Source: Candidatus Obscuribacterium magneticum (lineage in GTDB: Bacteria; Elusimicrobiota; Elusimicrobia; F11). Taken from it: a stretch of DNA of 64,000 nt. The notes under the pieces are model-generated. The model saw only the letters and a list, made by a program, of their open reading frames with translations, did not search any database and was not told the DNA's origin. Both the position numbers and the translations under genes were made by a program. The DNA is taken from assembly GCA_020523905.1 (NCBI GenBank), contig JAJAPZ010000004.1:35199-99198 (forward strand). The letters are read 5' to 3'. This document shows, one piece after another, positions 1,559 to 21,073 of this stretch (within the stretch, counting starts at the first letter, position 1; every line of letters begins with the position of its first letter).

Positions 1559-1571
1559 TATTATCATGACA

Positions 1572-2755: not shown

Positions 2756-4932
2756 GCCGGTTTCGAATGGCCTTCTTTGCGTTGGGGATCGCCTTTTTGT
2801 CGCTGTCGACCGTGACGGCGGCGACGATGAGCAGTCCTCAGGAAGCCTACCAGTTTTATCTGAAGGCCCTTCTCTATGAAAGCCAGGGGAATCTGGCGTT
2901 CGCTCAGGAAGAGTTGAACAAAGCCATTGCCCTGGCGCCCGCGAGCGACACCCTCTATAAAACGGCGGCGGAGTTGGCGTTCCGCCAGGGCCGCTCGCTT
3001 GACGCCATGGCGGCCGCCGAAAAGGCCATCGAGCTCAATCCCGGAAATTACAAGCTCTATATCCTGGCCGGCCAGATCTACTGGTCGGCCGGCGTTTCCG
3101 ACAAGGCCGAGGAGCGGTTGGGCAAGGCCGTCGAGCTGGCTCCGAATGAAGCGGAGCCCTTGATGAACCTGGCCATGGCGGTGACCCCGCGCGATCCCCG
3201 TCGGGCCATTGGTCTTTATAACGAGTACCTGGTCCGCCATCCCGGCGAGGTCGATATCCGGGAGAGGGTCGCTCAACTTCATCAGAGTTTGGGAGAGGTG
3301 GAAAAGGCGAAGGAGACCTGGGAGAAGGCGCTGGAATGGGCCCCTGATTCGCTCAAGGCCCACCTGGCCTTGGCACAGATTGCGGAGGTCCACGAAGACA
3401 CCTCAACCGCCATCCGGCATTATGAGGCTGTGTTGGCGCAGGATCCGAACAATTTGCCCATCCTCCTTCGGATCGGCGAGCTGCGTTATCGGGGCAATGA
3501 AATGACGGAGGCGTATGAGGCCTTCAGCAAGGCCCAGATGATCTCGCCGGAGAGCGCTTCCGCCAGCTTTTGGCTGGCGCTCCTTCATGAACAAAAGGGG
3601 GAGTGGGGCGAAGCCATCAAACTTTTGGAACAGGTGGCCGTCAAAGCCCCTGACACGGGCGTCCTCCTTCGGCTTTCCTATTATTATTCGCAGGCCCGGC
3701 AAAACAAAAAGTCGATCGCGATATTGAAAAAGCTGTCGGCGGAAGAACCGGAAAACGCGGACTTTTTAAATTACCTGTCCCTGTCCTATGAGGAAGACAA
3801 GCAGTTCCCCCAGGCCGAAAAGACGCTGCAGAAACTGTTGGTCCTCTTGCCGCAGGATCCCGAGGTGTATTTCCATTTGGCCACCGTTTACGACCGGATG
3901 AAGCGGCACGCCCTCGCGGAGGAGGCGCTAAAAAAAGCCATCGCCTTGAAGCCGGATTTTCCGGTCGCTCTCAATTATCTTGGTTATACGTACGCGGATC
4001 GGAACGTGAATCTGGAGGCGGCCGAGCAACTCGTCATGAACGCCATCGCCTTGGATCCGGCGAACGGCGCCTATTTGGATTCCATGGGCTGGGTGTATTA
4101 CCGGATGGGCAAGTTCCAGAAGGCGGAGGACTTTTTACAGCAAGCGATTCTCCAGGTGAAAGACCCCCTGATTTACGAGCATTTGGGGGATGTGCAGGCG
4201 GCGCGGGGAGAGGGGATCGCCGCGGTCCTCACTTGGGACGAGTCCCTCCGCCTTCAGCCCGGCCAGAAAAAAGTCCCGGCCCGGATCGATAAGGCCCTTG
4301 AGAAGCTCGACAATAAGGACAAGTTGAGCCTTTATTTAAAGCGGTCGGCCCATCAATTTTCGAAGGTCCAGTCGGTCCGGAGCCTTCTGGTCGTCAAGAT
4401 CGGCGAGAAAAAACCCTATTTTACATGCCAGGCCCAGATGAGTTATGACCAGAAGGGGCCGTTGATCGTCGAACTACCGGGACCCTTGTCGGGGCCCCTC
4501 CTGCGGCTTGAAAAGCTTTCGGGAGAACCGGCGAAGGTGGGCGCCATCCACCCCCTGCTTCAGTCGGTTGAGCCGTATGTGAAGAGGGCGGCGGAGCGGT
4601 TGGAAAGCGTTTTTTCCGCCGAGCTCTTCCGGGCCTTCCAAAAATCGGAAGGAGGGATGGAGATTCAGGAGAAGAAAGGGCTTCTTGTCGCGCGTTGGCT
4701 GGGCACGGCCCTCTCCTTCAAAAAGTCACAAGGGGCGCTTCAGGAGATCGTATGGTCGGAGGAAAAGCCCGATGCCTTGCGCTTTTCACCCTCCCGCCGG
4801 TCAAAGCCGTCACCCTGGCCGCCTGTCATGGAGTGGGTGGATCTCAATACAAATTTCCGCATCCGCCTGGAATTCGTCAGCCCCGTTTTCTCTTTTGGTT
4901 CGACGAAAAAAGATGAAAAAGGGACGCCTTAA
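2752..4932 (+). CDS. Exported tetratricopeptide-repeat protein (left-arm copy)
   Basis: Duplicate of 23871-26051. The ATG at 2752 overlaps the rimI stop. Signal peptide, then about a dozen TPR units over residues ~30-530, then a ~190-residue C-terminal domain I do not recognise. Confidence 0.9.
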   Translation: MSRFRMAFFALGIAFLSLSTVTAATMSSPQEAYQFYLKALLYESQGNLAFAQEELNKAIALAPASDTLYKTAAELAFRQGRSLDAMAAAEKAIELNPGNYKLYILAGQIYWSAGVSDKAEERLGKAVELAPNEAEPLMNLAMAVTPRDPRRAIGLYNEYLVRHPGEVDIRERVAQLHQSLGEVEKAKETWEKALEWAPDSLKAHLALAQIAEVHEDTSTAIRHYEAVLAQDPNNLPILLRIGELRYRGNEMTEAYEAFSKAQMISPESASASFWLALLHEQKGEWGEAIKLLEQVAVKAPDTGVLLRLSYYYSQARQNKKSIAILKKLSAEEPENADFLNYLSLSYEEDKQFPQAEKTLQKLLVLLPQDPEVYFHLATVYDRMKRHALAEEALKKAIALKPDFPVALNYLGYTYADRNVNLEAAEQLVMNAIALDPANGAYLDSMGWVYYRMGKFQKAEDFLQQAILQVKDPLIYEHLGDVQAARGEGIAAVLTWDESLRLQPGQKKVPARIDKALEKLDNKDKLSLYLKRSAHQFSKVQSVRSLLVVKIGEKKPYFTCQAQMSYDQKGPLIVELPGPLSGPLLRLEKLSGEPAKVGAIHPLLQSVEPYVKRAAERLESVFSAELFRAFQKSEGGMEIQEKKGLLVARWLGTALSFKKSQGALQEIVWSEEKPDALRFSPSRRSKPSPWPPVMEWVDLNTNFRIRLEFVSPVFSFGSTKKDEKGTP

Positions 4933-5770
4933 GGTCGTTTTGACCCTGCCGGCGTGCGCGAAGGTCAACCTTCATCTTCGCATCGGACGCCGGCGCGCGG
5001 ACGGCTATCACTCTCTCCAAACCCTCTTCCAGGAAATTTCCCTTCATGATGATCTCACGTTCCAGCGTCTGCCGTCCCGCCTTCGTTTGATCACCTCGGG
5101 TGGCCGCGTCCCGAAAGGGCGGAGCAATTTGATTGTTAAAGCATTGGCGTTATTGCGGAAGAAGCTCAGGCTCAAATCGGGGATGGAGGTTCGTTTGAAG
5201 AAGCGCATTCCCGTCGGCGGGGGTTTGGGGGGGGCTTCTTCTGATGCGGCGGCAGCCCTTTGGGGAGGGTGGCTTCTCTGGACCGGTCAGCGAAAACCGG
5301 TCCAACGGTATCGGAAGCAAGTCCCTCCGGTTCTCTTCGATTGCGCGCGGCGCTTGGGCGCCGATGTTCCTTTCTTCCTAAAAGGGGGAAAAGCGGAGGG
5401 GAAGGGGATCGGAGAAAACCTAAGGACTCTCCCGCGGGGCTCGAAAAAGTGGCTCATCCTGATTTACCCACGCGTTTCTGTTTCAACAGCGAAGGCTTAC
5501 CAGTGGCTTGATGAAGAACGAAAAAAGAATCGACCCCGACCCGTCATTAAAAAGGGTCCTCGGAACGATTTTGAACCCGTCGTTTTACCGCGATTCCCGG
5601 CGGTGGCGAGGGCCCGGTCGGAGTTGATCGGGTTGGGATGCCGTTCGGTGATGCTGTCGGGTTCGGGCTCGTGTGTTTTCGGGTTTGTGGGTAACCGCGC
5701 TGAGGGGAGTTGGATAGCGAAGAAGCTGGCGCCTCGTCCTTGGAATGTTTTTTTGCTCCATACACGTTAG
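4913..5770 (+). CDS. ispE: 4-diphosphocytidyl-2-C-methyl-D-erythritol kinase IspE (left-arm copy)
   Basis: Duplicate of 23033-23890. GHMP kinase with VGGGLGGASSDAAAAL at about residues 101-116. It overlaps the TPR gene by 20 bp. MEP-pathway isoprenoid precursor synthesis. Confidence 0.93.
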   Translation: MKKGRLKVVLTLPACAKVNLHLRIGRRRADGYHSLQTLFQEISLHDDLTFQRLPSRLRLITSGGRVPKGRSNLIVKALALLRKKLRLKSGMEVRLKKRIPVGGGLGGASSDAAAALWGGWLLWTGQRKPVQRYRKQVPPVLFDCARRLGADVPFFLKGGKAEGKGIGENLRTLPRGSKKWLILIYPRVSVSTAKAYQWLDEERKKNRPRPVIKKGPRNDFEPVVLPRFPAVARARSELIGLGCRSVMLSGSGSCVFGFVGNRAEGSWIAKKLAPRPWNVFLLHTR

Positions 5771-5818
5771 GCCAGAGAGCCTGCCCGTTTCTCCCATCGC
5801 CCAATTTTTATAAAGTAT

Positions 5819-5910
5819 GGGGTCAAGTCGCGACATGCGACATTCCGGCAGGAATAGATCTCGGTGAACCGCTGTTTTAGAAAAAATGTCGCATGTCGCG
5901 ACTTGACCCC
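5819..5910. repeat. Hairpin repeat, 26-bp perfect arms (left arm)
   Basis: Perfect inverted 26-bp arms, 5819-5844 and 5885-5910, around a 40-nt loop. The 24-nt arm core GGGGTCAAGTCGCGACATGC.. is the same as at the axis of the giant palindrome (14373-14430). It lies between ispE and tRNA-Gln and resembles REP/RAYT-associated hairpins. It may also act as a terminator-like structure for the ispE operon. Confidence 0.85.
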
Positions 5911-5915
5911 TTCGT

Positions 5916-5987
5916 TGGGGCGTAGCCAAGTGGTAAGGCACGGGCCTTTGGAGCCCGCATGCGATGGTTCGAATCCATCCGCCCCAG
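5916..5987 (+). tRNA. tRNA-Gln (anticodon UUG), left-arm copy
   Basis: Cloverleaf readable by eye: acceptor TGGGGCG with CGCCCCA, anticodon stem CGGGC/GCCCG with loop CTTTGGA (anticodon TTG), T-arm GGTTCGAATCC. The 3' CCA is not encoded. 72 nt. U at position 1 of the acceptor stem is typical of bacterial tRNA-Gln. Confidence 0.95.
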
Positions 5988-5992
5988 TTAGG

Positions 5993-6817
5993 CTACGTCA
6001 TTACGGCCAATTGCTTCAAAAGGCTCTTCACGATTCCGCAACAAATCGCGAGCAACCCAAAGGCGCAAACAACGGCGGCGCCGGTCGGAAAGTCCCAGGC
6101 GGCAGAGGCGTAGACGCCGGCGAGGCTCGTCGCTGCTCCCAATATCCAGCCGATGGTCAGCCTTTTCCCGAAATTTTTGGTGAAAAGAATGGCGCAAACG
6201 GCCGGAATAATAAGGAAGGAAAACACCAGAAGCACCCCGGCCAGATCGACCGAGCTGGTCACAACCACTCCGAAGGACATATAGAAAAGGAAATCCCACC
6301 AGCGGATGGAGATCCCTTTCTTTTCGGCTTCTTCGGGTTGGCAGGAAATGAGGATGAAGCGCTTTCGGAACAGAAAATGCAAAACGCCAATCCCGCTGTA
6401 GAGAAGAAACGTCCGCCAGATGTGAGGCCAGTCGACAAAAAGGATGTTCCCCACGAGCATATCCTTGATGTGCTGGGCTTCCGATGGAATGCGGTCTAAG
6501 ACAAGCACCGCCGCCGCGGCCGAGACGACGTAGACAATTCCAATGACGGCTTCCTGCGGGATATCGCTCTCTTTAAGTCGCGTGAAGGAAAAAATGGCGG
6601 CCCCAACAAAAGTGAAGCCGAGGGACATCAGATAGGCCGCCGGCGTATGAAGTGAAAAACCCCATCCGATGGCGGCGACGCTACCCAATGCGGCAATCTG
6701 AGCGAGCGCCAGATCGACAAATATGACGCCCCGTTCAATAACGTGGACGCCCAAGTAAGCGTGGATGCCCGTGAGGATCAGGCACGCCAGAAAAGGCAGT
6801 ATCATAAGATCGAGCAT
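5993..6817 (-). CDS. Zn/Mn-type ABC transporter permease, ZnuB-like (left-arm copy)
   Basis: Duplicate of 21986-22810. Very hydrophobic 274-residue ABC-3 family permease, 9 bp after the binding-protein gene. Confidence 0.9.
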   Translation of the reverse strand: MLDLMILPFLACLILTGIHAYLGVHVIERGVIFVDLALAQIAALGSVAAIGWGFSLHTPAAYLMSLGFTFVGAAIFSFTRLKESDIPQEAVIGIVYVVSAAAAVLVLDRIPSEAQHIKDMLVGNILFVDWPHIWRTFLLYSGIGVLHFLFRKRFILISCQPEEAEKKGISIRWWDFLFYMSFGVVVTSSVDLAGVLLVFSFLIIPAVCAILFTKNFGKRLTIGWILGAATSLAGVYASAAWDFPTGAAVVCAFGLLAICCGIVKSLLKQLAVMT

Positions 6818-6826
6818 AAAGTTCTC

Positions 6827-7729
6827 CTATTTATTAAATGCTGAAACGAGGTCATTGATGATCGCATCAAAGAGATCAAAATAATTTTTGACGTTCGGTT
6901 TTCCGCCGACGGAGCTCGGGACGATAAGAATGGAGGCGCCCGTTTTCTCCGCCACTTTCCGGGGGCCCTGTAAGGGAAAGAAGGTGTCCACCAGAATCAC
7001 CGCCGCCTCCTCGGCTTTCATCGTCTCGATCAGCTTCGCGAGGTGGGAGGGAGTTGGGGGGAGCCCCGGTTTTGGCTCGACGTTGCCAACAATATCCAAG
7101 CGAAACCGCTGCGAGAAGTAGATCCATGAATTATGATAGGTCACAAGCGTTTTTCCCGCGAAGGGCTCCATTTTTTTATCCCACTCGCCGATTTTTTCAC
7201 CGAGTGTTTTGATAAATGCGGCGTAATTCCGGCGAAAAACGGCCTCGTTCTCCGGCGAAACCCGGATGAACCCCTTCAGAATGGTTTCGGCCATGTTGAG
7301 GCCATTCACGGGATCGAGCCAGAAGTGAGGGTTTCCGAAAATATGGATGTCCCCCATGCTTGCGTCCACCTTCCCTTCGGGCACCTGGAGTTTCGGTATT
7401 CCGGCAGAAACATCGACATAGCCGGGGGCACCGAACACCACATTCTTATTGCGAGAGGCGGCGATGAGACTGTCCATCCACATGTCCAAATCCATGCCGA
7501 CGCGGACCATCATGTCGGCTTGTTTCACCTTGAACACCATGCTGGGTCTGGGCTCGATGAGGTGGAGATCGAAATCGCCGGCCGCCAGGCTTTCCACGAC
7601 AACTTGATCGCCTCCGATCATCTTGGCGATCGACTCCAAGTCTTGTGAGCTGGTCACCACGCGCACGGCGGCGTGGAGACCGCTTAAAGAAAACATCAAT
7701 AAAGCGCTGACGATTATTTTAGAGATCAT
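6827..7729 (-). CDS. Zn/Mn-binding periplasmic protein, ZnuA-like (left-arm copy)
   Basis: Duplicate of 21074-21976. Cluster A-I metal-binding protein with predicted ligands His56, His135, His199 and Asp248. Confidence 0.9.
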   Translation of the reverse strand: MISKIIVSALLMFSLSGLHAAVRVVTSSQDLESIAKMIGGDQVVVESLAAGDFDLHLIEPRPSMVFKVKQADMMVRVGMDLDMWMDSLIAASRNKNVVFGAPGYVDVSAGIPKLQVPEGKVDASMGDIHIFGNPHFWLDPVNGLNMAETILKGFIRVSPENEAVFRRNYAAFIKTLGEKIGEWDKKMEPFAGKTLVTYHNSWIYFSQRFRLDIVGNVEPKPGLPPTPSHLAKLIETMKAEEAAVILVDTFFPLQGPRKVAEKTGASILIVPSSVGGKPNVKNYFDLFDAIINDLVSAFNK

Positions 7730-7740
7730 GGCAGCCTCTC

Positions 7741-8907
7741 TTAATCCAACTCGTGGCTGTGAGGGCCCAAGCCGAAGACGAGCTGAGTCCAGCCTTCGTT
7801 AATGGTCTCGCCTACCCCCCGGCGCCTTTTATATTGGACGCGCAATGCTGACGTCTCTGTGAGATGGTAGCTTAAGATTCCAGAAATCGCCCGTTCAATA
7901 ATTTTAGTGGGGAAGGCGTTTTCCGCGTAATCCCAGCGTCCGCCGAAATCCACGTGTTTGTTGAGCCGGTAGCTGAGGAAGCTGTAGAAGCCGTCCCGTG
8001 TCAGGGTTCCGACCGGCCCCCTGCGCTTCAAGCGCAGCCATTCATTCTGAAATGTCCAGCGCCGATAGGCGTCCGGCCAAAGCCGGAAGGTAAGGTCCGC
8101 TCCAACGACGGTGGCAACGTCTTTGTGCTCTTCGAAGTGCGCCCCCTTGCCATGGGCGAAACTCGATCCAATCTCGATCTCTGATTTTGACAGGAGCGCA
8201 AAGGATGTCTTCGCCCGCGCCGTGTAAAACTCATCGCCAAAGGAATACTCGGTATCTTCATGCGCCTTTTCTTTTAAGACCTCCACCGTTCCGCCGCTTC
8301 CATCGGGGACTTCCACAGTTTCATACTCGGTGTGATGATGGTGGGGGTCTGCGCGCCAGGCACCGCCTTCAATTTGCAGGAAGAATGGAACGGGGAGAAG
8401 ATAGCTCAGCGTCCCGCCCTGGCCGATCAATCCATGTTCGCCGAAGAAATTGGTCAGAACAGTCGGTTGATCAATCACAGGACGAGTGTGGGTGTGGACT
8501 TTGTTGAGTTTCCCGAAGTTCACGTGAATTTTTCCCACTTCTCCAGCGACACCCGGCGCCAAATTCAGGAACCCCACCTTCGCTTCGCAAATCTCCGCCT
8601 CGACCTCGCCTTCGTGACGGTGCAGCGCGAGAAAAACGTCCGCCCGCATCTCAGGATAAATATATCCCTGAAACGCCGTCTCAATTTCATCGACGACAAA
8701 CTGATTCCGTTCGCCGTCGGATTTGTCGTCGCTCACATAACCGCTGAGCACTCCAACCACGCTGATATCGGGAAGATTGACAGGCGTTCCTCTCATCCCC
8801 TGGGGCGGAGTCGGGCCTGAAGGATTGACCGGCGCGGCGGTTTGGGCGTACAAACAGGAACCAACAATGAGCATCGTTAAAACAACCGAAAATATTCTTA
8901 AAAACAT
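7741..8907 (-). CDS. His-rich outer-membrane beta-barrel protein (left-arm copy)
   Basis: Duplicate of 19896-21062. Signal peptide, alternating beta-strand pattern and a His/Glu-rich loop beginning DPHHHHTEYE. Upstream of and co-directional with the znuA-like gene. Confidence 0.8.
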   Translation of the reverse strand: MFLRIFSVVLTMLIVGSCLYAQTAAPVNPSGPTPPQGMRGTPVNLPDISVVGVLSGYVSDDKSDGERNQFVVDEIETAFQGYIYPEMRADVFLALHRHEGEVEAEICEAKVGFLNLAPGVAGEVGKIHVNFGKLNKVHTHTRPVIDQPTVLTNFFGEHGLIGQGGTLSYLLPVPFFLQIEGGAWRADPHHHHTEYETVEVPDGSGGTVEVLKEKAHEDTEYSFGDEFYTARAKTSFALLSKSEIEIGSSFAHGKGAHFEEHKDVATVVGADLTFRLWPDAYRRWTFQNEWLRLKRRGPVGTLTRDGFYSFLSYRLNKHVDFGGRWDYAENAFPTKIIERAISGILSYHLTETSALRVQYKRRRGVGETINEGWTQLVFGLGPHSHELD

Positions 8908-9010
8908 ACAGAGCCTCCTTTGAATGCATAATCCTTTTTAGGTCGTCACGTGCCGGATCCAATCGGATCTCAAGCGCAACAGATTAATCTCTCGGTTTTA
9001 TTGTGCAGGT

Positions 9011-9274
9011 CTATGCAGGGACGGCCGGAGGGGCTCTTGGTTGGGCGGAAGGATAAGAAATATCAAAGCTGATGAGAGGAGTGGAAGGGATGAATAGTTG
9101 GCTCCAAGGGAGAAACAGCTTGACATCATCCGCTGCTTGCGGTGGAGCGGTGGATTGTCCCAGCCGGCAGATTTGGCAGTTGTCTTTTCCATAATTCTCA
9201 TGGGACAGAGAGTGCTCGATGAAGGTGGCCGTAAAAAGGGCCGCCAAAAGAACAAGAAAGAGCTTTTTCTTCAT
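9011..9274 (-). CDS. Small exported Cys/His protein (left-arm copy)
   Basis: Duplicate of 19529-19792. 87 residues: hydrophobic leader, then HSLSHENYGKDNCQIC and a Pro-rich tail ending RAPPAVPA. Confidence 0.65.
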   Translation of the reverse strand: MKKKLFLVLLAALFTATFIEHSLSHENYGKDNCQICRLGQSTAPPQAADDVKLFLPWSQLFIPSTPLISFDISYPSAQPRAPPAVPA

Positions 9275-9279
9275 TTCAT

Positions 9280-9657
9280 TCAGGGAGGTGGATGAGGCCC
9301 CTTCCGGCGGTGTTGGAATTTTTTCTCCATTTTGTCGAACTTGGCCTGTTGTTCGGGCGTCAGCTTTGTTCGGATTTCCGCCGCCGTTGCCTTCCGGATG
9401 GCTTCAAATTTGGGTCGGATGTCGGTCAGCAATTTTTCCGTCTGCTTGCGGCTCAAGGTTAGGATCGCCTTGATTTCTTCCTTTTGCTGCGGGTTCAGTC
9501 CCAGTTTGGAACTAAATCGCTTCAGAATCCGATCTTCGTGATTCCCCATCGGTATTCGTTTGAAATAATGCCAGGGTGATGCAAAGCGCCCCAGAAGGCC
9601 TCCGATCAAGAGTCCCACCAAAAGCGGTATGACCATTTGTTTAAGATTTAATTTCAT
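9280..9657 (-). CDS. Membrane-anchored Spy/CnrX-like metal-sensor protein (left-arm copy)
   Basis: Duplicate of 19146-19523. N-terminal membrane anchor and helical LTPEQQAKFDKM motif. The start overlaps the anti-sigma stop (ATGA). Confidence 0.82.
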   Translation of the reverse strand: MKLNLKQMVIPLLVGLLIGGLLGRFASPWHYFKRIPMGNHEDRILKRFSSKLGLNPQQKEEIKAILTLSRKQTEKLLTDIRPKFEAIRKATAAEIRTKLTPEQQAKFDKMEKKFQHRRKGPHPPP

Positions 9658-10121
9658 ATTTCCCCCATAACGTACCTTAGGATTTGGTCTTCACGGGCGA
9701 CATCGGCCGAGACGAGCCAATCGGAGGGTATATTTTCAGCTTTGTATTCAAAAAGGAGCGAGTCTAATGGCGCTTTCGGTTCCGGCATGGGAACCGTCAT
9801 GATAAATAAGAACCCAGCCACGGCCGCCCCAACAAAGGCCGGATAAAACCAGCGGTTCAAGGCCCGACGAAGCCCTCCTTGCTCTCGGACGTCGGCGGGT
9901 TCGAGACGTTCAATCCGAGCCATCACGCGGTGGACGAACTCTTCAGAAGAGGGAAGTTGAGGGGTCTTAAAAAACATATCCGTGGTTTTCTTCCATTCTT
10001 CTGCATTTGTCCGGCATTCGGCGCAGGCCTCCAGATGAGCGGTCACCTCGTGGCGCTCTCCGATCGACAACTCATTGTCGTCATAAGCGTCCAGCTTGTC
10101 TTTAATTTGATCGTGATCCAT
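9654..10121 (-). CDS. Zinc-finger anti-sigma factor (left-arm copy)
   Basis: Duplicate of 18682-19149. HxxxCxxC (His29, Cys33, Cys36) plus one membrane segment. The start at 10121 is chosen for its AGGAG site; the longer frame overlaps the sigma gene. Confidence 0.9.
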   Translation of the reverse strand: MDHDQIKDKLDAYDDNELSIGERHEVTAHLEACAECRTNAEEWKKTTDMFFKTPQLPSSEEFVHRVMARIERLEPADVREQGGLRRALNRWFYPAFVGAAVAGFLFIMTVPMPEPKAPLDSLLFEYKAENIPSDWLVSADVAREDQILRYVMGEI

Positions 10122-10138
10122 ACGCTTTCTCCTGTCTT

Positions 10139-10711
10139 CTATTGGACGATCTTGGACCCTAAAAAGTGTCGGGCCTTTTCCCTGAGCTCCTGCCGGGCCC
10201 GGCGCAAACGCGCTTTTACCGCGTCCAGCGTGCATCTTAAATAGGACGCCATTTCTTCATACGTGAAGCCCCCCACCTCTCGCAAAGCCAGAATCTCCTT
10301 GTAGTCCGGGCTTAGTGTGGACATAACCTCATTGATAAGGTCCTGATAATCCTGGCTGGAAGGCTTTGTCCGATTGACGTCGAGGAGTTTCTCGCCTGTA
10401 TCGTGGCGGTCTTCTACGAGGTTGTCCAGCGAGTCCGTCTTTTGGCGCTTTTTTTTGCGCAGCAGATCCATGCAATGGTTGTGCGTAATACGATAAAGCC
10501 AGGTGGGAAAGGACGACTCGCCGTGAAATCCCGCGAGTGATTCATACGCCTTGATAAATACATCTTGGGCGGCATCTTCGGCCTCAACGGGATTCGCCAG
10601 AAGGACGAGGCAAGACCTCAGGACCTGCGCTTGATACCGGCGGACCAAGGTGGCATAAGAATCCCGGTTTCCCGAGAGGACGGCCCGAACAATCTTGTCA
10701 TCATCAGTCAT
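10139..10711 (-). CDS. ECF-family RNA polymerase sigma factor (left-arm copy)
   Basis: Duplicate of 18092-18664. Region 2 motif DAAQDVFIKAYESL and a region 4 helix-turn-helix ending LRRARQELR. Confidence 0.95.
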   Translation of the reverse strand: MTDDDKIVRAVLSGNRDSYATLVRRYQAQVLRSCLVLLANPVEAEDAAQDVFIKAYESLAGFHGESSFPTWLYRITHNHCMDLLRKKKRQKTDSLDNLVEDRHDTGEKLLDVNRTKPSSQDYQDLINEVMSTLSPDYKEILALREVGGFTYEEMASYLRCTLDAVKARLRRARQELREKARHFLGSKIVQ

Positions 10712-10714
10712 TAT

Positions 10715-11098
10715 TCATTTCTTCTGGCGACCGAATTCTTGTATTTTTTCCTTCCGCTCCGCCTTCATCTCCGTGTACTTGGTTTTTTGGTCATTGTTGA
10801 GAGCGGCGGTGATTTGTTTGTCCGTGTCTTCCCGGATCGTTTTCATTTTTTCTGCGAAATCTTTCCGCAATTCATCTGTTTTTGTACGTTGGCTTTCCCA
10901 GGCGGCTTTAACCACCTTTTGTTGATCGCGCGAAAGGCGAAGTTTCTTCGTCAACATGTCGAGTCTTTTCTTGGTTCTTTCCTGCGTCTTTTCCTCAAAT
11001 TTATGCGCGCCGGGATTGCCCGGGCGTTCCGCCGTTAGGGGAACGGAAATTTGAGATGTGAGCAAGAGAAAGGTTGTTATCATAGTGATGTTTTTCAT
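10715..11098 (-). CDS. Spy/CpxP-like periplasmic protein (left-arm copy)
   Basis: Duplicate of 17705-18088. Signal peptide and charged helical body. First gene of the sigma-factor operon, 3 bp before the sigma gene. Confidence 0.8.
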   Translation of the reverse strand: MKNITMITTFLLLTSQISVPLTAERPGNPGAHKFEEKTQERTKKRLDMLTKKLRLSRDQQKVVKAAWESQRTKTDELRKDFAEKMKTIREDTDKQITAALNNDQKTKYTEMKAERKEKIQEFGRQKK

Positions 11099-11166
11099 GG
11101 GATTTAGACTCCTTTTTGAATTTCTATCGTCAATGAGATGCTACAATATCGGGTGCCTCCAACCCT

Positions 11167-11195
11167 ATAGACGCTGGAAGACCTGAAAAAGTGTC
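11167..11195 (-). promoter_or_regulatory. ECF-type promoter for the sigma-factor operon (left arm)
   Basis: On the minus strand, GACACTT (11189-11195), 16-nt spacer, GTCTAT (11167-11172). It mirrors the promoter of the divergent tolC operon. Confidence 0.65.
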
Positions 11196-11208
11196 TGAAT
11201 AATAATGC

Positions 11209-11237
11209 GACACTTTTGGGAACGAACAACCGTCTAA
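11209..11237 (+). promoter_or_regulatory. ECF-type promoter for the tolC-macA-macB operon (left arm)
   Basis: GACACTT (11209-11215), 16-nt spacer, GTCTAA (11232-11237). The -35 half forms a 9-bp inverted repeat (AAAAGTGTC/GACACTTTT, 13-nt spacer) with the -35 of the opposite promoter. Confidence 0.65.
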
Positions 11238-11247
11238 TAAGTATCTT

Positions 11248-12540
11248 ATGAAGAATAAATTGACCCATTGGATTCATCGTGTCCGCCGCTCTAGCGTTGT
11301 ATTGATATTCATGGTTCTTGTGCCTGTTGTGTGGGGGGCGGAGGAACAGAAAAGTCCTTTGACGTGGGCGGACTGCGTTCTCATCGCGTCGCAGAAAAAC
11401 CCGGATCTCCGGGCTGCTCAGAAAAATCTGGCGGCTTCAAAAGCCAGTTATTACGGCAGTTTTAACGGGTATTCCCCTCAAATCACTCTTTCCAATACGT
11501 ACAGCGATTCGGATTCACACAATCCCGATTCACGCTGGGGGGCCCAAGGGACCGCCAGCATGAATTTCTTCAATCCGACAACCAACGCCTCCATCCGGTC
11601 CGCTTCCGCTTCCTTAAGACAAGCCGAGGCCAGTGTGCGGATTGCCTCTGCCAACCTGCGGTTTTCCTTAAAACAAGCCTTTGCCGATCTCCTTTTCGCC
11701 CAGGAAAAGGTCCGGGTGGCGGAAAAGATTTTGGATCTGCGCATGGACAATTCCAAAATGGTCACTCTCAGCTACGAATCCGGCCGCGAGTCCAAAGGAA
11801 ATATGTTGAGAGCCCAGGCGGAACTCCGCCAAGCACAAGCCGATCTGGCGAGTGCGCATCGCGATATGCGTTCGTCTCAACAGGACCTCGGCCGCCAACT
11901 GGGCTTGGATGAGTTCGCCGCCGTGACCGCCACCGGAACTCTGGCCACAGCTCCCCTGCCGGAACTTCCCAACACATCCCTCCTGGTGGATCAAACCCCT
12001 CCGGTGGCCCAGCTTGAAGCAGCCCTGGAAATCGCCAGGGCCGGTTTGCAGTCGGCCCGGAGCCAGTTGTGGCCGTTCCTCTCCGGTCAATACTCGCGAA
12101 GCGTCAATGGCAAAGACGAATTTCCGAACGACACCTATCAATGGAACGCTTCCATCGGCTTGAGTTACAGGCTTTTTGGAGGCGGCATCACCTCCGTTTA
12201 TTACGCGGCCTCCGCCGCCCGCCGGAATCTGGAACAGGCGGCAGAAAACCTGCGTTCCACCCGCAACCAGGTTCGCTCGAACCTCGAATCCGGTTGGGCC
12301 CATCTGGCCGACGGGATCGATCAGGTCCAGGTCCAGAAGCAATTTCTGGAGGCGGGCCAGCAGAGGAACAAGGAGGCCCACGTTCGCTACACCAGCGGCC
12401 TTATCTCTTTTGAGGATTGGGAATTGGCCGTGACCGATTTTGTCAACTCTGAGAAAAGTGCCATTCAATCGGCGCATGATGCGCTGGTCGCCGAAGCCCA
12501 GTGGGAACAGGCTCTCGGGAAACCTTTGGAGGAGAAATGA
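11248..12540 (+). CDS. TolC-family outer-membrane efflux protein (left-arm copy)
   Basis: Duplicate of 16263-17555. Signal peptide, then two long-helix OEP repeats. Confidence 0.9.
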   Translation: MKNKLTHWIHRVRRSSVVLIFMVLVPVVWGAEEQKSPLTWADCVLIASQKNPDLRAAQKNLAASKASYYGSFNGYSPQITLSNTYSDSDSHNPDSRWGAQGTASMNFFNPTTNASIRSASASLRQAEASVRIASANLRFSLKQAFADLLFAQEKVRVAEKILDLRMDNSKMVTLSYESGRESKGNMLRAQAELRQAQADLASAHRDMRSSQQDLGRQLGLDEFAAVTATGTLATAPLPELPNTSLLVDQTPPVAQLEAALEIARAGLQSARSQLWPFLSGQYSRSVNGKDEFPNDTYQWNASIGLSYRLFGGGITSVYYAASAARRNLEQAAENLRSTRNQVRSNLESGWAHLADGIDQVQVQKQFLEAGQQRNKEAHVRYTSGLISFEDWELAVTDFVNSEKSAIQSAHDALVAEAQWEQALGKPLEEK

Positions 12541-13568
12541 AAAGAAAAAAACGGTTTGTATGGATTGTCATGGCCGCGCTGATCGCCGGCGGCTTTTCTT
12601 TTTGGATTGTTCATAAAAAAGATGTGAAAAACGAACGCGCTGAAATGCGTCGTTTGGTCGCGGCCACGGAAGGCCCCATCGAAGAGACGGTGGAAGCCAC
12701 GGGCGAGGTCTCTCCCTTGAATCGGGTCGAAATAAAACCCCCCATCCAGGGACGTATTGAAAAGCTTCTGGTTGATGAAGGAGAAAACGTGAAAGCCGGC
12801 GAAATCATGGCATGGATGAGTTCGAGCGACCGGGCGGCCATCCTGGATGCCGCCCGGGCCAAGGGATTGGACGAACTCAAACGGTGGGAAGACACGTATA
12901 AACCGACGCCGATCATCGCTCCTTTGTCCGGTGTCGTCATCCTGCGCAATGTCGTCGTGGGGCAGACGGTGGACTTGTCGATCGTTCTCTACGCGCTTTC
13001 CGATAGGCTGATCGTTGTCGCCAACGTCGACGAAGCCGACATCGGTCTCGTGCACATCGGCATGCCGGCGCGCATTACCTTGGACGCCTACCCCGGACAA
13101 AGCATCGACGGCCGCGTTTTCAATATTTTGTATGAAGGGAAAAATGTGTCCAACGTCATCACCTACGATGTGAAAATTGAGCCTGCCCGTGTACCTCCCT
13201 TTTTCCGTTCGCAGATGACAGCCGACGTGAGTTTGATTATTGAAAAGCGGGAGAATGCCGTCTTGGTGCCGAGCCTGGCCATCAGCAACAATCGATCCGG
13301 AGGAAAACGGGTCATGGTGGAGGGGCCCGACGGGAAGCCGGTTCCCCGCGACGTCACCACCGGCATCGAAAACGGCGAGACCACGGAAATTGTCTCCGGT
13401 TTGAACGCCGGCGAATCGGTTTATATTTTTTCCAAACGTTATGTGCCCCAGTCGGCCGGCGCCTCAAGCCCGCTCATCATGGGGGGGCGGCCCCGAAGCG
13501 GAAGTAACCAACAGCCAACGGGCCAAGGCTCCACCCGGCAGGGGCAGGGTGGCCAACGTCCCCAATGA
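12537..13568 (+). CDS. macA: MacA/HlyD-type periplasmic adaptor (left-arm copy)
   Basis: Duplicate of 15235-16266. The ATG overlaps the tolC stop. Membrane anchor, lipoyl-like half-motifs and an unusually short helical hairpin. Confidence 0.88.
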   Translation: MKRKKRFVWIVMAALIAGGFSFWIVHKKDVKNERAEMRRLVAATEGPIEETVEATGEVSPLNRVEIKPPIQGRIEKLLVDEGENVKAGEIMAWMSSSDRAAILDAARAKGLDELKRWEDTYKPTPIIAPLSGVVILRNVVVGQTVDLSIVLYALSDRLIVVANVDEADIGLVHIGMPARITLDAYPGQSIDGRVFNILYEGKNVSNVITYDVKIEPARVPPFFRSQMTADVSLIIEKRENAVLVPSLAISNNRSGGKRVMVEGPDGKPVPRDVTTGIENGETTEIVSGLNAGESVYIFSKRYVPQSAGASSPLIMGGRPRSGSNQQPTGQGSTRQGQGGQRPQ

Positions 13569-13605
13569 TATGTCTCCAACGAATCTTTGCCGATTTAAAG
13601 GATGC

Positions 13606-13673
13606 TCTCCCCGCGAAGGCGGGGAGCCAGGCCGTGAACACCGGACTGGATCCCCGCCTTCGCGGGGATGACG
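13606..13673. repeat. Dispersed palindromic repeat between macA and macB ATPase gene (left arm)
   Basis: CTCCCCGCGAAGGCGGGGAG facing ATCCCCGCCTTCGCGGGGAT, separated by ~30 nt. Same family as 35091, 49261, 53698 and 61569. Confidence 0.85.
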
Positions 13674-13702
13674 AATGTTGAGGCATTTCCACACATTACT
13701 TT

Positions 13703-14572
13703 ATGTCCTTGATCGAACTTAAAAACATCAACCGTTCCTATCGGGTGGGGGGAAGCGAACTCCGTGTCCTAAAGGATATAACGCTGGATATCCAGGAAGG
13801 GGAGTTTGTGGCGATCATGGGGCCTTCGGGCTCCGGCAAGTCGACGCTCATGCAAATCCTGGGCCTCTTGGACCGCCCCACCAAAGGCAGCTACCGTCTC
13901 CTCGGCCACGATGTCTCACGCTTGACGGACGATGAAGGGGCGGCCCTCCGTTCCCGGACGATCGGCTTTATCTTCCAAATGTTTAACCTCCTTCCCCGGA
14001 CAACAACGTTGGATAACGTCATCCTTCCTTTGGTGTATTCCGGCGAGTCCCACCGGAAAGAGCGCGCTCTCGAACTGTTGAAAAAAGTCGGGTTGGAGGA
14101 CCGGACGACACACCGGCCGAACGAGCTCTCGGGCGGCCAGCAGCAGCGTGTGGCCATCGCCCGGGCTTTGGTCAACCAGCCCCGCATCATCTTTGCCGAC
14201 GAACCCACGGGAAATCTGGCCTCTGAGCAATCAAAGGAAATTATGGGATACCTCGAAGAACTCCACCAAAGCGGCATTACCGTCATTATGGTTACCCACG
14301 ATCCCGATATCGCCAAGCACGCGAAGAGGATCATCCACCTCAAAGACGGTTGTGTCGTGGGGGATGAGGGAAGGGGTCAAGTCGCGACATGCGACACGCC
14401 GCGGCGTGTCGCATGTCGCGACTTGACCCCTTCCCTCATCCCCCACGACACAACCGTCTTTGAGGTGGATGATCCTCTTCGCGTGCTTGGCGATATCGGG
14501 ATCGTGGGTAACCATAATGACGGTAATGCCGCTTTGGTGGAGTTCTTCGAGGTATCCCATAATTTCCTTTGA
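13703..14572 (+). CDS. MacB/LolD-type ABC ATPase, 3' end chimeric at palindrome axis (left-arm copy)
   Basis: Residues 1 to about 223 are a normal lipoprotein/macrolide-exporter-type ATPase (Walker A GPSGSGKST, signature LSGGQQQRVAIARAL, Walker B FADEPTGNL). From about 14373 the frame runs into the hairpin repeat and past the axis at 14401.5, so the last ~57 residues are antisense of the gene's own 3' part and not a natural C-terminus. The MacB-type permease expected next is absent because the sequence folds back. See the mirror copy 14231-15100. Confidence 0.85.
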   Translation: MSLIELKNINRSYRVGGSELRVLKDITLDIQEGEFVAIMGPSGSGKSTLMQILGLLDRPTKGSYRLLGHDVSRLTDDEGAALRSRTIGFIFQMFNLLPRTTTLDNVILPLVYSGESHRKERALELLKKVGLEDRTTHRPNELSGGQQQRVAIARALVNQPRIIFADEPTGNLASEQSKEIMGYLEELHQSGITVIMVTHDPDIAKHAKRIIHLKDGCVVGDEGRGQVATCDTPRRVACRDLTPSLIPHDTTVFEVDDPLRVLGDIGIVGNHNDGNAALVEFFEVSHNFL

Positions 14573-15100
14573 TTGCTCAGAGGCCAGATTTCCCGTGGGT
14601 TCGTCGGCAAAGATGATGCGGGGCTGGTTGACCAAAGCCCGGGCGATGGCCACACGCTGCTGCTGGCCGCCCGAGAGCTCGTTCGGCCGGTGTGTCGTCC
14701 GGTCCTCCAACCCGACTTTTTTCAACAGTTCGAGAGCGCGCTCTTTCCGGTGGGACTCGCCGGAATACACCAAAGGAAGGATGACGTTATCCAACGTTGT
14801 TGTCCGGGGAAGGAGGTTAAACATTTGGAAGATAAAGCCGATCGTCCGGGAACGGAGGGCCGCCCCTTCATCGTCCGTCAAGCGTGAGACATCGTGGCCG
14901 AGGAGACGGTAGCTGCCTTTGGTGGGGCGGTCCAAGAGGCCCAGGATTTGCATGAGCGTCGACTTGCCGGAGCCCGAAGGCCCCATGATCGCCACAAACT
15001 CCCCTTCCTGGATATCCAGCGTTATATCCTTTAGGACACGGAGTTCGCTTCCCCCCACCCGATAGGAACGGTTGATGTTTTTAAGTTCGATCAAGGACAT
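14231..15100 (-). CDS. MacB/LolD-type ABC ATPase, 3' end chimeric at palindrome axis (right-arm copy)
   Basis: Cytoplasmic nucleotide-binding subunit of a MacB/LolD-type transporter. Visible in order: Walker A GPSGSGKST near residue 40, Q-loop region FIFQMFNLLP, signature LSGGQQQRVAIARAL, Walker B IIFADEPTGNL and H-loop MVTHDPD. Such ATPases end near 225-250 residues, shortly after RIIHLKDG, so only bases 15100 to about 14431 are trustworthy; the rest is hairpin and antisense. It follows the adaptor gene 134 bp downstream with a palindromic repeat between. TolC-MacA-ATPase order indicates a tripartite efflux pump whose permease gene has been lost from view at the fold-back. Confidence 0.87.
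   Translation of the reverse strand: MSLIELKNINRSYRVGGSELRVLKDITLDIQEGEFVAIMGPSGSGKSTLMQILGLLDRPTKGSYRLLGHDVSRLTDDEGAALRSRTIGFIFQMFNLLPRTTTLDNVILPLVYSGESHRKERALELLKKVGLEDRTTHRPNELSGGQQQRVAIARALVNQPRIIFADEPTGNLASEQSKEIMGYLEELHQSGITVIMVTHDPDIAKHAKRIIHLKDGCVVGDEGRGQVATCDTPRRVACRDLTPSLIPHDTTVFEVDDPLRVLGDIGIVGNHNDGNAALVEFFEVSHNFL
14373..14430. repeat. 58-bp hairpin repeat at the axis of the giant palindrome
   Basis: GGGGTCAAGTCGCGACATGC.. reads inward from both sides to a CGCCG|CGGCG centre. The first 24 bases of each arm equal the arms of the hairpin at 5819-5910, which has a real 40-nt loop, so this was probably a member of that family just after the ATPase gene. A perfectly self-complementary stretch like this is a natural place for an assembler, polymerase or read to fold back. 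Confidence 0.9.
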
Positions 15101-15129
15101 AAAGTAATGTGTGGAAATGCCTCAACATT

Positions 15130-15197
15130 CGTCATCCCCGCGAAGGCGGGGATCCAGTCCGGTGTTCACGGCCTGGCTCCCCGCCTTCGCGGGGAGA
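15130..15197. repeat. Dispersed palindromic repeat between macA and macB ATPase gene (right arm)
   Basis: Mirror of 13606-13673: GGGGATGACGAATG-side arm and CTCCCCGCCTTCGCGGGGAG-side arm of the GCGAAGGCGGGG family. Intercistronic, possibly transcribed as a hairpin within the efflux operon mRNA. Confidence 0.85.
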
Positions 15198-15234
15198 GCA
15201 TCCTTTAAATCGGCAAAGATTCGTTGGAGACATA

Positions 15235-16266
15235 TCATTGGGGACGTTGGCCACCCTGCCCCTGCCGGGTGGAGCCTTGGCCCGTTGGCTGTTGGTTACT
15301 TCCGCTTCGGGGCCGCCCCCCCATGATGAGCGGGCTTGAGGCGCCGGCCGACTGGGGCACATAACGTTTGGAAAAAATATAAACCGATTCGCCGGCGTTC
15401 AAACCGGAGACAATTTCCGTGGTCTCGCCGTTTTCGATGCCGGTGGTGACGTCGCGGGGAACCGGCTTCCCGTCGGGCCCCTCCACCATGACCCGTTTTC
15501 CTCCGGATCGATTGTTGCTGATGGCCAGGCTCGGCACCAAGACGGCATTCTCCCGCTTTTCAATAATCAAACTCACGTCGGCTGTCATCTGCGAACGGAA
15601 AAAGGGAGGTACACGGGCAGGCTCAATTTTCACATCGTAGGTGATGACGTTGGACACATTTTTCCCTTCATACAAAATATTGAAAACGCGGCCGTCGATG
15701 CTTTGTCCGGGGTAGGCGTCCAAGGTAATGCGCGCCGGCATGCCGATGTGCACGAGACCGATGTCGGCTTCGTCGACGTTGGCGACAACGATCAGCCTAT
15801 CGGAAAGCGCGTAGAGAACGATCGACAAGTCCACCGTCTGCCCCACGACGACATTGCGCAGGATGACGACACCGGACAAAGGAGCGATGATCGGCGTCGG
15901 TTTATACGTGTCTTCCCACCGTTTGAGTTCGTCCAATCCCTTGGCCCGGGCGGCATCCAGGATGGCCGCCCGGTCGCTCGAACTCATCCATGCCATGATT
16001 TCGCCGGCTTTCACGTTTTCTCCTTCATCAACCAGAAGCTTTTCAATACGTCCCTGGATGGGGGGTTTTATTTCGACCCGATTCAAGGGAGAGACCTCGC
16101 CCGTGGCTTCCACCGTCTCTTCGATGGGGCCTTCCGTGGCCGCGACCAAACGACGCATTTCAGCGCGTTCGTTTTTCACATCTTTTTTATGAACAATCCA
16201 AAAAGAAAAGCCGCCGGCGATCAGCGCGGCCATGACAATCCATACAAACCGTTTTTTTCTTTTCAT
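15235..16266 (-). CDS. macA: MacA/HlyD-type periplasmic adaptor of tripartite efflux pump
   Basis: 343-residue membrane-fusion protein linking an inner-membrane ABC pump to the TolC-type channel. One N-terminal membrane anchor (about residues 7-23), then IQGRIEKLLVDEGENVKAG, the first half of the lipoyl/barrel-sandwich domain, and the second half around IIAPLSGVVILRNVVVGQTV. Only ~35 residues separate the two halves, so the alpha-helical hairpin is very short compared with E. coli MacA. Beta-barrel and membrane-proximal domains follow, and the C-terminus is a low-complexity Gly/Gln/Arg tail. The start at 16266 overlaps the tolC stop (ATGA). The likely partner pump is MacB-like, judged from the next gene. 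The substrate is not evident; metal or envelope stress is suggested by the divergent sigma-factor operon. Confidence 0.88.
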   Translation of the reverse strand: MKRKKRFVWIVMAALIAGGFSFWIVHKKDVKNERAEMRRLVAATEGPIEETVEATGEVSPLNRVEIKPPIQGRIEKLLVDEGENVKAGEIMAWMSSSDRAAILDAARAKGLDELKRWEDTYKPTPIIAPLSGVVILRNVVVGQTVDLSIVLYALSDRLIVVANVDEADIGLVHIGMPARITLDAYPGQSIDGRVFNILYEGKNVSNVITYDVKIEPARVPPFFRSQMTADVSLIIEKRENAVLVPSLAISNNRSGGKRVMVEGPDGKPVPRDVTTGIENGETTEIVSGLNAGESVYIFSKRYVPQSAGASSPLIMGGRPRSGSNQQPTGQGSTRQGQGGQRPQ

Positions 16267-17555
16267 TTCTCCTCCAAAGGTTTCCCGAGAGCCTGTTCCC
16301 ACTGGGCTTCGGCGACCAGCGCATCATGCGCCGATTGAATGGCACTTTTCTCAGAGTTGACAAAATCGGTCACGGCCAATTCCCAATCCTCAAAAGAGAT
16401 AAGGCCGCTGGTGTAGCGAACGTGGGCCTCCTTGTTCCTCTGCTGGCCCGCCTCCAGAAATTGCTTCTGGACCTGGACCTGATCGATCCCGTCGGCCAGA
16501 TGGGCCCAACCGGATTCGAGGTTCGAGCGAACCTGGTTGCGGGTGGAACGCAGGTTTTCTGCCGCCTGTTCCAGATTCCGGCGGGCGGCGGAGGCCGCGT
16601 AATAAACGGAGGTGATGCCGCCTCCAAAAAGCCTGTAACTCAAGCCGATGGAAGCGTTCCATTGATAGGTGTCGTTCGGAAATTCGTCTTTGCCATTGAC
16701 GCTTCGCGAGTATTGACCGGAGAGGAACGGCCACAACTGGCTCCGGGCCGACTGCAAACCGGCCCTGGCGATTTCCAGGGCTGCTTCAAGCTGGGCCACC
16801 GGAGGGGTTTGATCCACCAGGAGGGATGTGTTGGGAAGTTCCGGCAGGGGAGCTGTGGCCAGAGTTCCGGTGGCGGTCACGGCGGCGAACTCATCCAAGC
16901 CCAGTTGGCGGCCGAGGTCCTGTTGAGACGAACGCATATCGCGATGCGCACTCGCCAGATCGGCTTGTGCTTGGCGGAGTTCCGCCTGGGCTCTCAACAT
17001 ATTTCCTTTGGACTCGCGGCCGGATTCGTAGCTGAGAGTGACCATTTTGGAATTGTCCATGCGCAGATCCAAAATCTTTTCCGCCACCCGGACCTTTTCC
17101 TGGGCGAAAAGGAGATCGGCAAAGGCTTGTTTTAAGGAAAACCGCAGGTTGGCAGAGGCAATCCGCACACTGGCCTCGGCTTGTCTTAAGGAAGCGGAAG
17201 CGGACCGGATGGAGGCGTTGGTTGTCGGATTGAAGAAATTCATGCTGGCGGTCCCTTGGGCCCCCCAGCGTGAATCGGGATTGTGTGAATCCGAATCGCT
17301 GTACGTATTGGAAAGAGTGATTTGAGGGGAATACCCGTTAAAACTGCCGTAATAACTGGCTTTTGAAGCCGCCAGATTTTTCTGAGCAGCCCGGAGATCC
17401 GGGTTTTTCTGCGACGCGATGAGAACGCAGTCCGCCCACGTCAAAGGACTTTTCTGTTCCTCCGCCCCCCACACAACAGGCACAAGAACCATGAATATCA
17501 ATACAACGCTAGAGCGGCGGACACGATGAATCCAATGGGTCAATTTATTCTTCAT
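16263..17555 (-). CDS. TolC-family outer-membrane efflux channel
   Basis: 430-residue outer-membrane/periplasmic channel protein (OEP family). A cleavable leader ends near VVWGAEEQ. The mature protein opens with LTWADCVLIASQKNPDLRAA, the usual start of TolC-type repeats, and has long Ala/Gln-rich amphipathic helices interrupted by beta-strand segments such as YSPQITLSNTYSDS and ASIGLSYRLFGGG. It heads the operon tolC-macA-macB ATPase and is read divergently from the ECF sigma operon. An ECF-type promoter ends 10 bp upstream of the ATG, so leader and promoter are very close. Family assignment is secure, transported substrate unknown. Confidence 0.9.
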   Translation of the reverse strand: MKNKLTHWIHRVRRSSVVLIFMVLVPVVWGAEEQKSPLTWADCVLIASQKNPDLRAAQKNLAASKASYYGSFNGYSPQITLSNTYSDSDSHNPDSRWGAQGTASMNFFNPTTNASIRSASASLRQAEASVRIASANLRFSLKQAFADLLFAQEKVRVAEKILDLRMDNSKMVTLSYESGRESKGNMLRAQAELRQAQADLASAHRDMRSSQQDLGRQLGLDEFAAVTATGTLATAPLPELPNTSLLVDQTPPVAQLEAALEIARAGLQSARSQLWPFLSGQYSRSVNGKDEFPNDTYQWNASIGLSYRLFGGGITSVYYAASAARRNLEQAAENLRSTRNQVRSNLESGWAHLADGIDQVQVQKQFLEAGQQRNKEAHVRYTSGLISFEDWELAVTDFVNSEKSAIQSAHDALVAEAQWEQALGKPLEEK

Positions 17556-17565
17556 AAGATACTTA

Positions 17566-17594
17566 TTAGACGGTTGTTCGTTCCCAAAAGTGTC
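17566..17594 (-). promoter_or_regulatory. ECF-type promoter for tolC-macA-macB operon (right arm)
   Basis: Minus strand: GACACTT (17588-17594), 16-nt spacer, GTCTAA (17566-17571). The -35 resembles GGAACTT and the -10 TCTAA of RpoE/ECF promoters. The identical layout on the other strand at 17608-17636 supports it. The -10 is very close to the tolC ATG (17555), implying a short leader. Confidence 0.65.
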
Positions 17595-17607
17595 GCATTA
17601 TTATTCA

Positions 17608-17636
17608 GACACTTTTTCAGGTCTTCCAGCGTCTAT
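17608..17636 (+). promoter_or_regulatory. ECF-type autoregulatory promoter of the sigma-factor operon (right arm)
   Basis: GACACTT (17608-17614), 16-nt spacer, GTCTAT (17631-17636), 68 bp before the first gene. Together with the divergent promoter it builds a 9-bp inverted repeat with a 13-nt centre, so one sigma factor could drive both directions. Inference from sequence pattern only. Confidence 0.65.
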
Positions 17637-17704
17637 AGGGTTGGAGGCACCCGATATTGTAGCATCTCATTGACGATAGAAATTCAAAAAGGAGTCTAAA
17701 TCCC

Positions 17705-18088
17705 ATGAAAAACATCACTATGATAACAACCTTTCTCTTGCTCACATCTCAAATTTCCGTTCCCCTAACGGCGGAACGCCCGGGCAATCCCGGCGCGCAT
17801 AAATTTGAGGAAAAGACGCAGGAAAGAACCAAGAAAAGACTCGACATGTTGACGAAGAAACTTCGCCTTTCGCGCGATCAACAAAAGGTGGTTAAAGCCG
17901 CCTGGGAAAGCCAACGTACAAAAACAGATGAATTGCGGAAAGATTTCGCAGAAAAAATGAAAACGATCCGGGAAGACACGGACAAACAAATCACCGCCGC
18001 TCTCAACAATGACCAAAAAACCAAGTACACGGAGATGAAGGCGGAGCGGAAGGAAAAAATACAAGAATTCGGTCGCCAGAAGAAATGA
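17705..18088 (+). CDS. Spy/CpxP-like periplasmic protein, first gene of ECF operon
   Basis: 127-residue protein with a signal peptide ending near PLTAERPG and a highly charged helical body (KKLRLSRDQQKVVKAAWESQ, then ITAALNNDQKTKYTEMKAERK). The second segment is an LTxxQ-like motif of the Spy/CpxP/CnrX superfamily of periplasmic chaperones and metal or stress sensors. A good ribosome site (AAAGGAG) precedes the ATG, and the sigma-factor gene starts 3 bp after the stop. By analogy with CnrX in cobalt/nickel resistance it could titrate or sense metal or misfolded protein and signal to the anti-sigma factor. No metal-ligand His/Cys set is obvious, so a chaperone role is equally possible. Confidence 0.8.
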   Translation: MKNITMITTFLLLTSQISVPLTAERPGNPGAHKFEEKTQERTKKRLDMLTKKLRLSRDQQKVVKAAWESQRTKTDELRKDFAEKMKTIREDTDKQITAALNNDQKTKYTEMKAERKEKIQEFGRQKK

Positions 18089-18091
18089 ATA

Positions 18092-18664: not shown

Positions 18665-18681
18665 AAGACAGGAGAAAGCGT

Positions 18682-19523: not shown

Positions 19524-19528
19524 ATGAA

Positions 19529-19792
19529 ATGAAGAAAAAGCTCTTTCTTGTTCTTTTGGCGGCCCTTTTTACGGCCACCTTCATCGAGCACTCTCTGTCC
19601 CATGAGAATTATGGAAAAGACAACTGCCAAATCTGCCGGCTGGGACAATCCACCGCTCCACCGCAAGCAGCGGATGATGTCAAGCTGTTTCTCCCTTGGA
19701 GCCAACTATTCATCCCTTCCACTCCTCTCATCAGCTTTGATATTTCTTATCCTTCCGCCCAACCAAGAGCCCCTCCGGCCGTCCCTGCATAG
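19529..19792 (+). CDS. Small exported Cys/His protein of the metal locus
   Basis: 87 residues, 5 bp after the sensor gene. A hydrophobic leader (LFLVLLAALFTATF) is followed by a compact HSLSHENYGKDNCQICRLGQ segment with three possible metal ligands (two His) and a CQIC pair. The rest is Pro/Ala rich and ends RAPPAVPA. Small proteins with a leader, a His/Cys knot and an R-x-PPA tail, often grouped as DUF2946-like, accompany metal transport genes in other bacteria; that is recollection of a pattern, not a search. I cannot assign a function, but a periplasmic metal-binding or chaperone peptide fits its place between the sensor and the His-rich porin. Confidence 0.65.
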   Translation: MKKKLFLVLLAALFTATFIEHSLSHENYGKDNCQICRLGQSTAPPQAADDVKLFLPWSQLFIPSTPLISFDISYPSAQPRAPPAVPA

Positions 19793-21062: not shown

Positions 21063-21073
21063 GAGAGGCTGCC

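Follow-up and report, generated by a model that had tools for sequence, protein, structure and literature searches.

Organization of the locus

The window, by which we mean the whole 64,000-nt stretch of DNA that was analysed (positions 1-64000 of contig C82, minus strand), carries a regulatory operon and an export operon that point away from each other. The first gene of the sigma operon, which lies on the minus strand, encodes a Spy/LTXXQ-like small exported protein (P0004, 10715-11098) that has no significant Spy/LTXXQ Pfam match and whose likeness emerges only when the regulon members are aligned. It is followed by the gene for a 190-aa ECF sigma factor (10139-10711, minus; Sigma70_r2, 2.5e-19; Sigma70_r4_2, 1.3e-13), a small protein with regions 2 and 4 only, as in group 4 of the sigma70 family. 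The adjoining gene encodes a membrane-anchored zf-HC2 anti-sigma (9654-10121, minus; zf-HC2, 3.3e-09), in which the H-x3-C-x2-C signature of the ZAS type and a hydrophobic segment can be read from the sequence; its likely start is the ATG at 10121, and the longest ORF begins at 10235. Next comes P0003 (9280-9657, minus), a membrane-anchored periplasmic protein of the Metal_resist/LTXXQ type (Metal_resist, 7.5e-08). The Metal_resist match places P0003 with CnrX/Spy-like domains, with a putative role as a sensor, and no match was found among the sequences of solved structures. Downstream of this gene, after a 370-nt gap, the minus strand at 5993-8907 contains ZnuA-/ZnuB-like metal ABC importer genes and a gene for an exported protein of 388 aa that has His-rich stretches and gave no Pfam match.

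On the plus strand, the export operon consists of a complete gene for a TolC-family outer membrane efflux protein (11248-12540), a complete gene for a MacA/RND-type periplasmic adaptor (12501-13568) and a MacB-type ABC ATPase gene (13703-14401) that is cut at residue 233. This cut coincides with the centre of a palindrome (14401|14402). When the window is joined with the remainder of its contig, the 99,198 b of C82 equal their own reverse complement with zero mismatches (2 x 49,599). Positions 1-14401 and 14402-28802 thus represent a single sequence, and all genes within 1-28802 appear twice. The duplicate (14402-28802) also contains promoter copies at 17567-17594, 17608-17635 and 18633-18661. 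If the palindrome, or a hairpin end, existed in the genome itself, the second promoter pair would be real; in favour of this, the 28.8-kb inverted repeat is 100% complementary and lacks a spacer. However, the match runs from end to end of the contig without a mismatch, and the centre interrupts a MacB/ABC gene that continues at the matching place in relatives, where longer ABC genes are found (554 aa in the sister genome G002). We regard a real palindrome as extremely improbable; the contig palindrome is almost certainly an assembly artefact. The second promoter pair that the first-pass annotation had reported at 17566-17636 thus exists in the letters but is not independent evidence, and there is effectively one divergent pair.

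A divergent pair of putative ECF promoters

Between the two operons, a search of the window found GACACTT-N16-GTCTA in exact form and back-to-back, at 11168-11195 (minus) and 11209-11236 (plus). The full minus-strand site (11167-11195; GACACTT at 11195-11189, N16, GTCTAT at 11172-11167) faces the Spy-like/sigma/anti-sigma/Metal_resist operon, and the full plus-strand site (11209-11237; GACACTT at 11209-11215, N16, GTCTAA at 11232-11237) faces the genes for TolC, the adaptor and MacB. Both have the features of ECF promoters, that is, a -35 element with an AC/AAC core, a spacer of 15-17 nt and a -10 element with GTC. The window holds four matches to the motif against about 0.01 expected, and four or more were obtained in 0 of 100 shuffles. 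The two -35 elements are part of an inverted repeat with arms of 9 bp (AAAAGTGTC / GACACTTTT), between which lie 13 nt (11196-11208). The two sites on opposite strands are exactly as the first-pass annotation had described them; the inverted repeat with its 13-nt centre is where it was said to be, and the gene on one side does encode an ECF sigma factor. The proposal that the sites are ECF promoters for the sigma operon and the efflux operon is supported by the sequence and by the gene context, and it is very probable that the two of them do control the expression of a stress-response regulator and an export pump.

The annotation had also predicted a coupled output. One site does point toward the sigma operon and the other toward TolC-MacA-MacB, but with the two -35 elements only 13 nt apart, two holoenzymes would probably hinder each other, and the usual footprints of polymerases make it more likely that they compete than that they fire together. 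The TolC ATG lies only 10 nt past the plus-strand -10 element (11232-11248), with no clear ribosome-binding site, and a transcript from this promoter would be nearly leaderless; short leaders are seen at other motif sites as well.

A conserved site at the 3' end of the sigma gene

A third putative ECF promoter (10142-10170, minus), absent from the first-pass annotation, lies across the 3' end of the sigma gene, where GACACTT-N16-GTCCAA is directly followed by the sigma stop codon TAG. The -10 element of this terminal site differs by a T-to-C change from that of G002, which reads GTC|TAA; this change also makes the sigma factor of the window one residue longer, and the terminal -10 is, judged by these letters, weakened.

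Sigma homologues were sought in the class, about 80 loci were fetched, and the ends of the sigma genes were lined up and counted in 79 loci, some of which may hold more distant ECFs. In most of them, CGACACTT-N16-GTCTAA is found at the 3' end of the sigma gene, directly upstream of the anti-sigma gene, with a -10 element that usually consists of the last codon GTC and the stop codon TAA. The terminal motif is exact in 43/79 loci and has at most one mismatch in 64/79, while the ends of 612 other ORFs, used as a control, gave 2 exact and 3 near matches. A predicted anti-sigma promoter inside the sigma gene, of the PrshA/rseA P3 type, is accordingly present by sequence in 64 of the 79 loci. The consensus is absent in the other 15, about seven of which carry a GTAAC-type variant (read by eye).

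Upstream of the sigma gene, the motif was found in 19/79 loci (a hand count of the output), mostly within ~110 nt and otherwise at ~480-710 nt. The window belongs to the latter group, with the motif at -484 ahead of the intervening Spy-like gene, an arrangement that reads as an autoregulated operon. Positive autoregulation is therefore possible in the window and in some relatives, which agrees in part with the self-activating regulon predicted earlier, but it is a minority trait and not the conserved core, since the best-conserved site feeds the anti-sigma gene. The scarcity of upstream sites suggests a conserved circuit in which the sigma factor would drive its own inhibitor plus the pump. 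The genes for sigma, anti-sigma, Metal_resist, TolC, adaptor and MacB follow each other colinearly in most genomes (an order that naive ORF calling blurs in high-GC genomes), so that one terminal promoter could feed inhibitor and pump together. In the window and in G002 the pump is divergent from the sigma operon, and the divergent pair of the window is best read as a derived rearrangement.

Distribution of the motif across the class

The strict motif with a spacer of N15-17 was surveyed in 235 Elusimicrobiota genomes. About 98 sites were listed in 58 genomes, compared with about six for the reversed pattern. The motif occurs in 53/74 genomes with the sigma factor and in 5/161 genomes without it (Fisher p = 2e-29, a value that ignores kinship and is overstated because the genomes are related). 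Away from the sigma loci there are 38 sites, at 30 of which an ORF of 80 aa or more begins no farther than 110 nt away. In raw counts, without a formal genomic background, these 30 ORFs include eight OEP/TolC proteins and two periplasmic adaptors. LTXXQ/Metal_resist proteins account for seven more by Pfam (for some, the score is close to or under the curated cut-off) and a further two by resemblance, and single CsgG, TPR, TRL and autotransporter-repeat proteins are also present. The genome-wide search that had been proposed as a check on the first reading was thus positive in related genomes, where efflux and periplasmic stress genes stand before the sites.

In the organism's own genome, copies of the motif outside the locus were found only on contig C64, which carries a second sigma/anti-sigma/Metal_resist locus (L009) with three motif copies. 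The GC content of C64 is 40.8%, compared with ~53-56% for most of the larger contigs, and the contamination of the bin is 13%. The low GC content suggests that C64 is a bin contaminant, and we doubt that its sigma locus represents a second one in this organism. In G002, two sites with similar spacers, TGATCGATGTGGAATC and TTATTGATGTTGAACC, precede a TolC gene and a Spy-like gene (L121 on C14 and L123 on C53), possibly reflecting a recent promoter duplication in that genome.

Specificity variants and occurrence in other phyla

Where the -35 element is GACACTT, the recognition helix of the sigma factor reads D[SA]VK[AG]R (D in 67/68, A or G in 65/68). In family f4, a GTAAC-type -35 element occupies the terminal place (L103, L104, L107, L113, L115, L116 and L082), and the helix reads K[VI]RLF, with K[VI]R in 6/7. 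Clostridia with GGAACTT have GTVKSR (G and S in 20/20). These observations fit a sigma factor and a promoter that change together, and they are supportive rather than proof, as the covariation follows phylogeny.

The terminal motif is also carried by FCPU426, Omnitrophota and one Melainabacteria-labelled genome. In Clostridia, GGAACTT-N15-17-GTCTAA lies at the sigma end in 20/30 homologues within one mismatch (12 exact; shuffles gave a mean of 0.05). Terminal GACACTT was found in 0/30 of the Clostridia, whereas the Elusimicrobia have 43 exact GACACTT and 0 exact GGAACTT. GTC|TAA is also used by seven of the Clostridia terminal sites. At the Clostridia loci L235-L264, L177-L183, L192-L194 and L209-L213, GGAACTT...GTCTAA lies at or across the sigma stop, upstream of a zf-HC2-type anti-sigma gene. 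Neither consensus was found at the sigma ends of the loci from Paenibacillus, Desulfosporosinus, most Deltaproteobacteria, Aminicenantes, Ignavibacteria and Verrucomicrobia, and the layout is therefore not universal.

Alternative explanations of the sites

The terminal motif could simply be the trace of a conserved C-terminal peptide of the sigma factor (RHF...V*), as an RH[FLIV] tail is common to 58/79 loci. However, shuffling the synonymous codons of the sigma gene destroys the motif, leaving on average 3.3 (at most 8) exact matches and 22 (at most 31) within one mismatch. Codon choice in the motif is also narrow: Arg is encoded by the rare CGA in 53/58 cases (background ~7%), His by CAC in 58/58 and the terminal Val by GTC in 43/43, and the stop is fixed as TAA (43/43). 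Other lineages place the same DNA motif in another frame, across or after the stop codon (L051, L054, L089, L111), and it occurs far from sigma genes as well. On a sigma protein tree built without the C-terminal tail, the position of the -10 element relative to the stop shifts about 14 times while the motif persists. The codon shuffles and these register changes indicate that the selected object is the DNA and not the peptide, and we rejected peptide conservation as an explanation to which we give hardly any credence.

Only marginally more credible is that AAAAGTGTC-N13-GACACTTTT forms an operator for a dimeric regulator instead of two promoters. Palindromes like this one, of 9 bp and located between divergent genes, are typical of operators, yet most copies of the motif are single and directional, with GTCTAA 15-17 nt downstream, and the presence of the motif tracks the ECF sigma factor. 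The gap between mirrored -35 elements is 13 nt in the window, 11 nt in G002, 22 nt on C64 and 100 nt on contig C46 of G002; the 13-nt centre is no conserved operator geometry, and this variation led us to reject an operator. The sites might also be ECF promoters that mainly serve another ECF sigma factor of the same genome, as many class members have several ECF genes (a first look gave from 1 to ~20 candidates per genome). Such cross-talk is less far-fetched than an operator but still unlikely, because the motif is rare in genomes that lack this sigma group, lies inside the gene of the sigma factor itself and has a -35 element that varies with the recognition helix of this sigma factor.

Proposed circuit and its implications

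Promoters of the adjacent ECF sigma factor are thus our preferred reading of the pair, as part of a class-wide circuit with the terminal promoter before the anti-sigma gene at its core, and on the sequences compared we hold this to be highly probable. Based on the observed motifs, their positions, their conservation and their gene context, we infer the use of these promoters by the sigma factor, the signal and the dynamics. The sigma factor would be freed when the membrane anti-sigma and the Metal_resist protein in the periplasm sense a signal that comes from the envelope or from a metal. The holoenzyme would then fire the terminal promoter, leading to more anti-sigma, more Metal_resist protein and, where the genes are colinear, more pump. 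Spy-like and efflux genes elsewhere in the genome would be activated as well, and so would the upstream promoter in genomes that have one. The freed sigma factor would in this way raise its own inhibitor and the pump, not necessarily itself, as in a homeostatic pulse circuit. In the family of the window, the pump genes would have been relocated to the divergent side, where a separate copy of the promoter would serve them, and the upstream copy would add self-activation: the minus-strand promoter would serve the Spy-like, sigma, anti-sigma and Metal_resist genes, and the plus-strand promoter the TolC-MacAB pump.

Earlier mining for ECF target motifs assumed that sigma genes are autoregulated from upstream and took the sequences ahead of them as its material (PMC3817407); a search limited to such sequences would miss a terminal site. 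We see an even chance that the terminal site reflects a widespread rule of design, which arose or was retained in several phyla with differing -35 elements: the sigma factor's own target promoter occupies the final codons and the stop of its gene and feeds the anti-sigma gene. If so, the final 30-60 nt of many uncharacterized ECF sigma genes could reveal the target promoters of their products. An inhibitor-first promoter would also change the expected dynamics, from a self-amplifying switch to a self-limiting pulse. In addition, an uncultured phylum would gain a decoded envelope or metal stress regulon, as predicted from sequence.

Comparison with known systems

In CnrYXH of Cupriavidus metallidurans, an ECF sigma factor, a membrane anti-sigma and a periplasmic protein of the Metal_resist family control efflux genes. 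The Elusimicrobiota system differs from it in gene order and in the type of anti-sigma; its output is MacAB-TolC together with Spy-like proteins, and metal sensing is putative here. The sigmaE promoters of E. coli have the consensus GGAACTT-N15/16-GTCTAA, near-identical to the Elusimicrobiota sites in -10 element and spacing, whereas the -35 element here is GACACTT; the Clostridia copies keep GGAACTT.

A close likeness is to SigH/RshA of Corynebacterium glutamicum, where a SigH-dependent promoter within sigH, PrshA, transcribes rshA alone, with starts mapped 62-66 nt before rshA (PMC3489674). Unlike the sites described here, PrshA belongs to another ECF group, has a GGAAT/GTT-type motif and lies farther upstream of the anti-sigma start; it is a single-species report that concerns the anti-sigma only and no pump, while the Elusimicrobiota site would also feed the pump where the genes are colinear. 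A passage of PMC8595263 that cites Rhodius 2006 describes rseA P3 of E. coli, a SigmaE-dependent promoter in the rpoE coding region that drives rseABC in negative feedback; it lies ~230 nt upstream of rseA, and not at the stop codon as in Elusimicrobiota. With these two precedents, the principle of an anti-sigma promoter inside a sigma gene is already known. Among the open-licence papers searched, no report was found of such promoters overlapping a stop codon or in Elusimicrobiota. What appears to be new in comparison with these systems is that the site is conserved across a class, overlaps the stop codon and is coupled to MacAB-TolC and Spy-like genes, and that Clostridia show a parallel.
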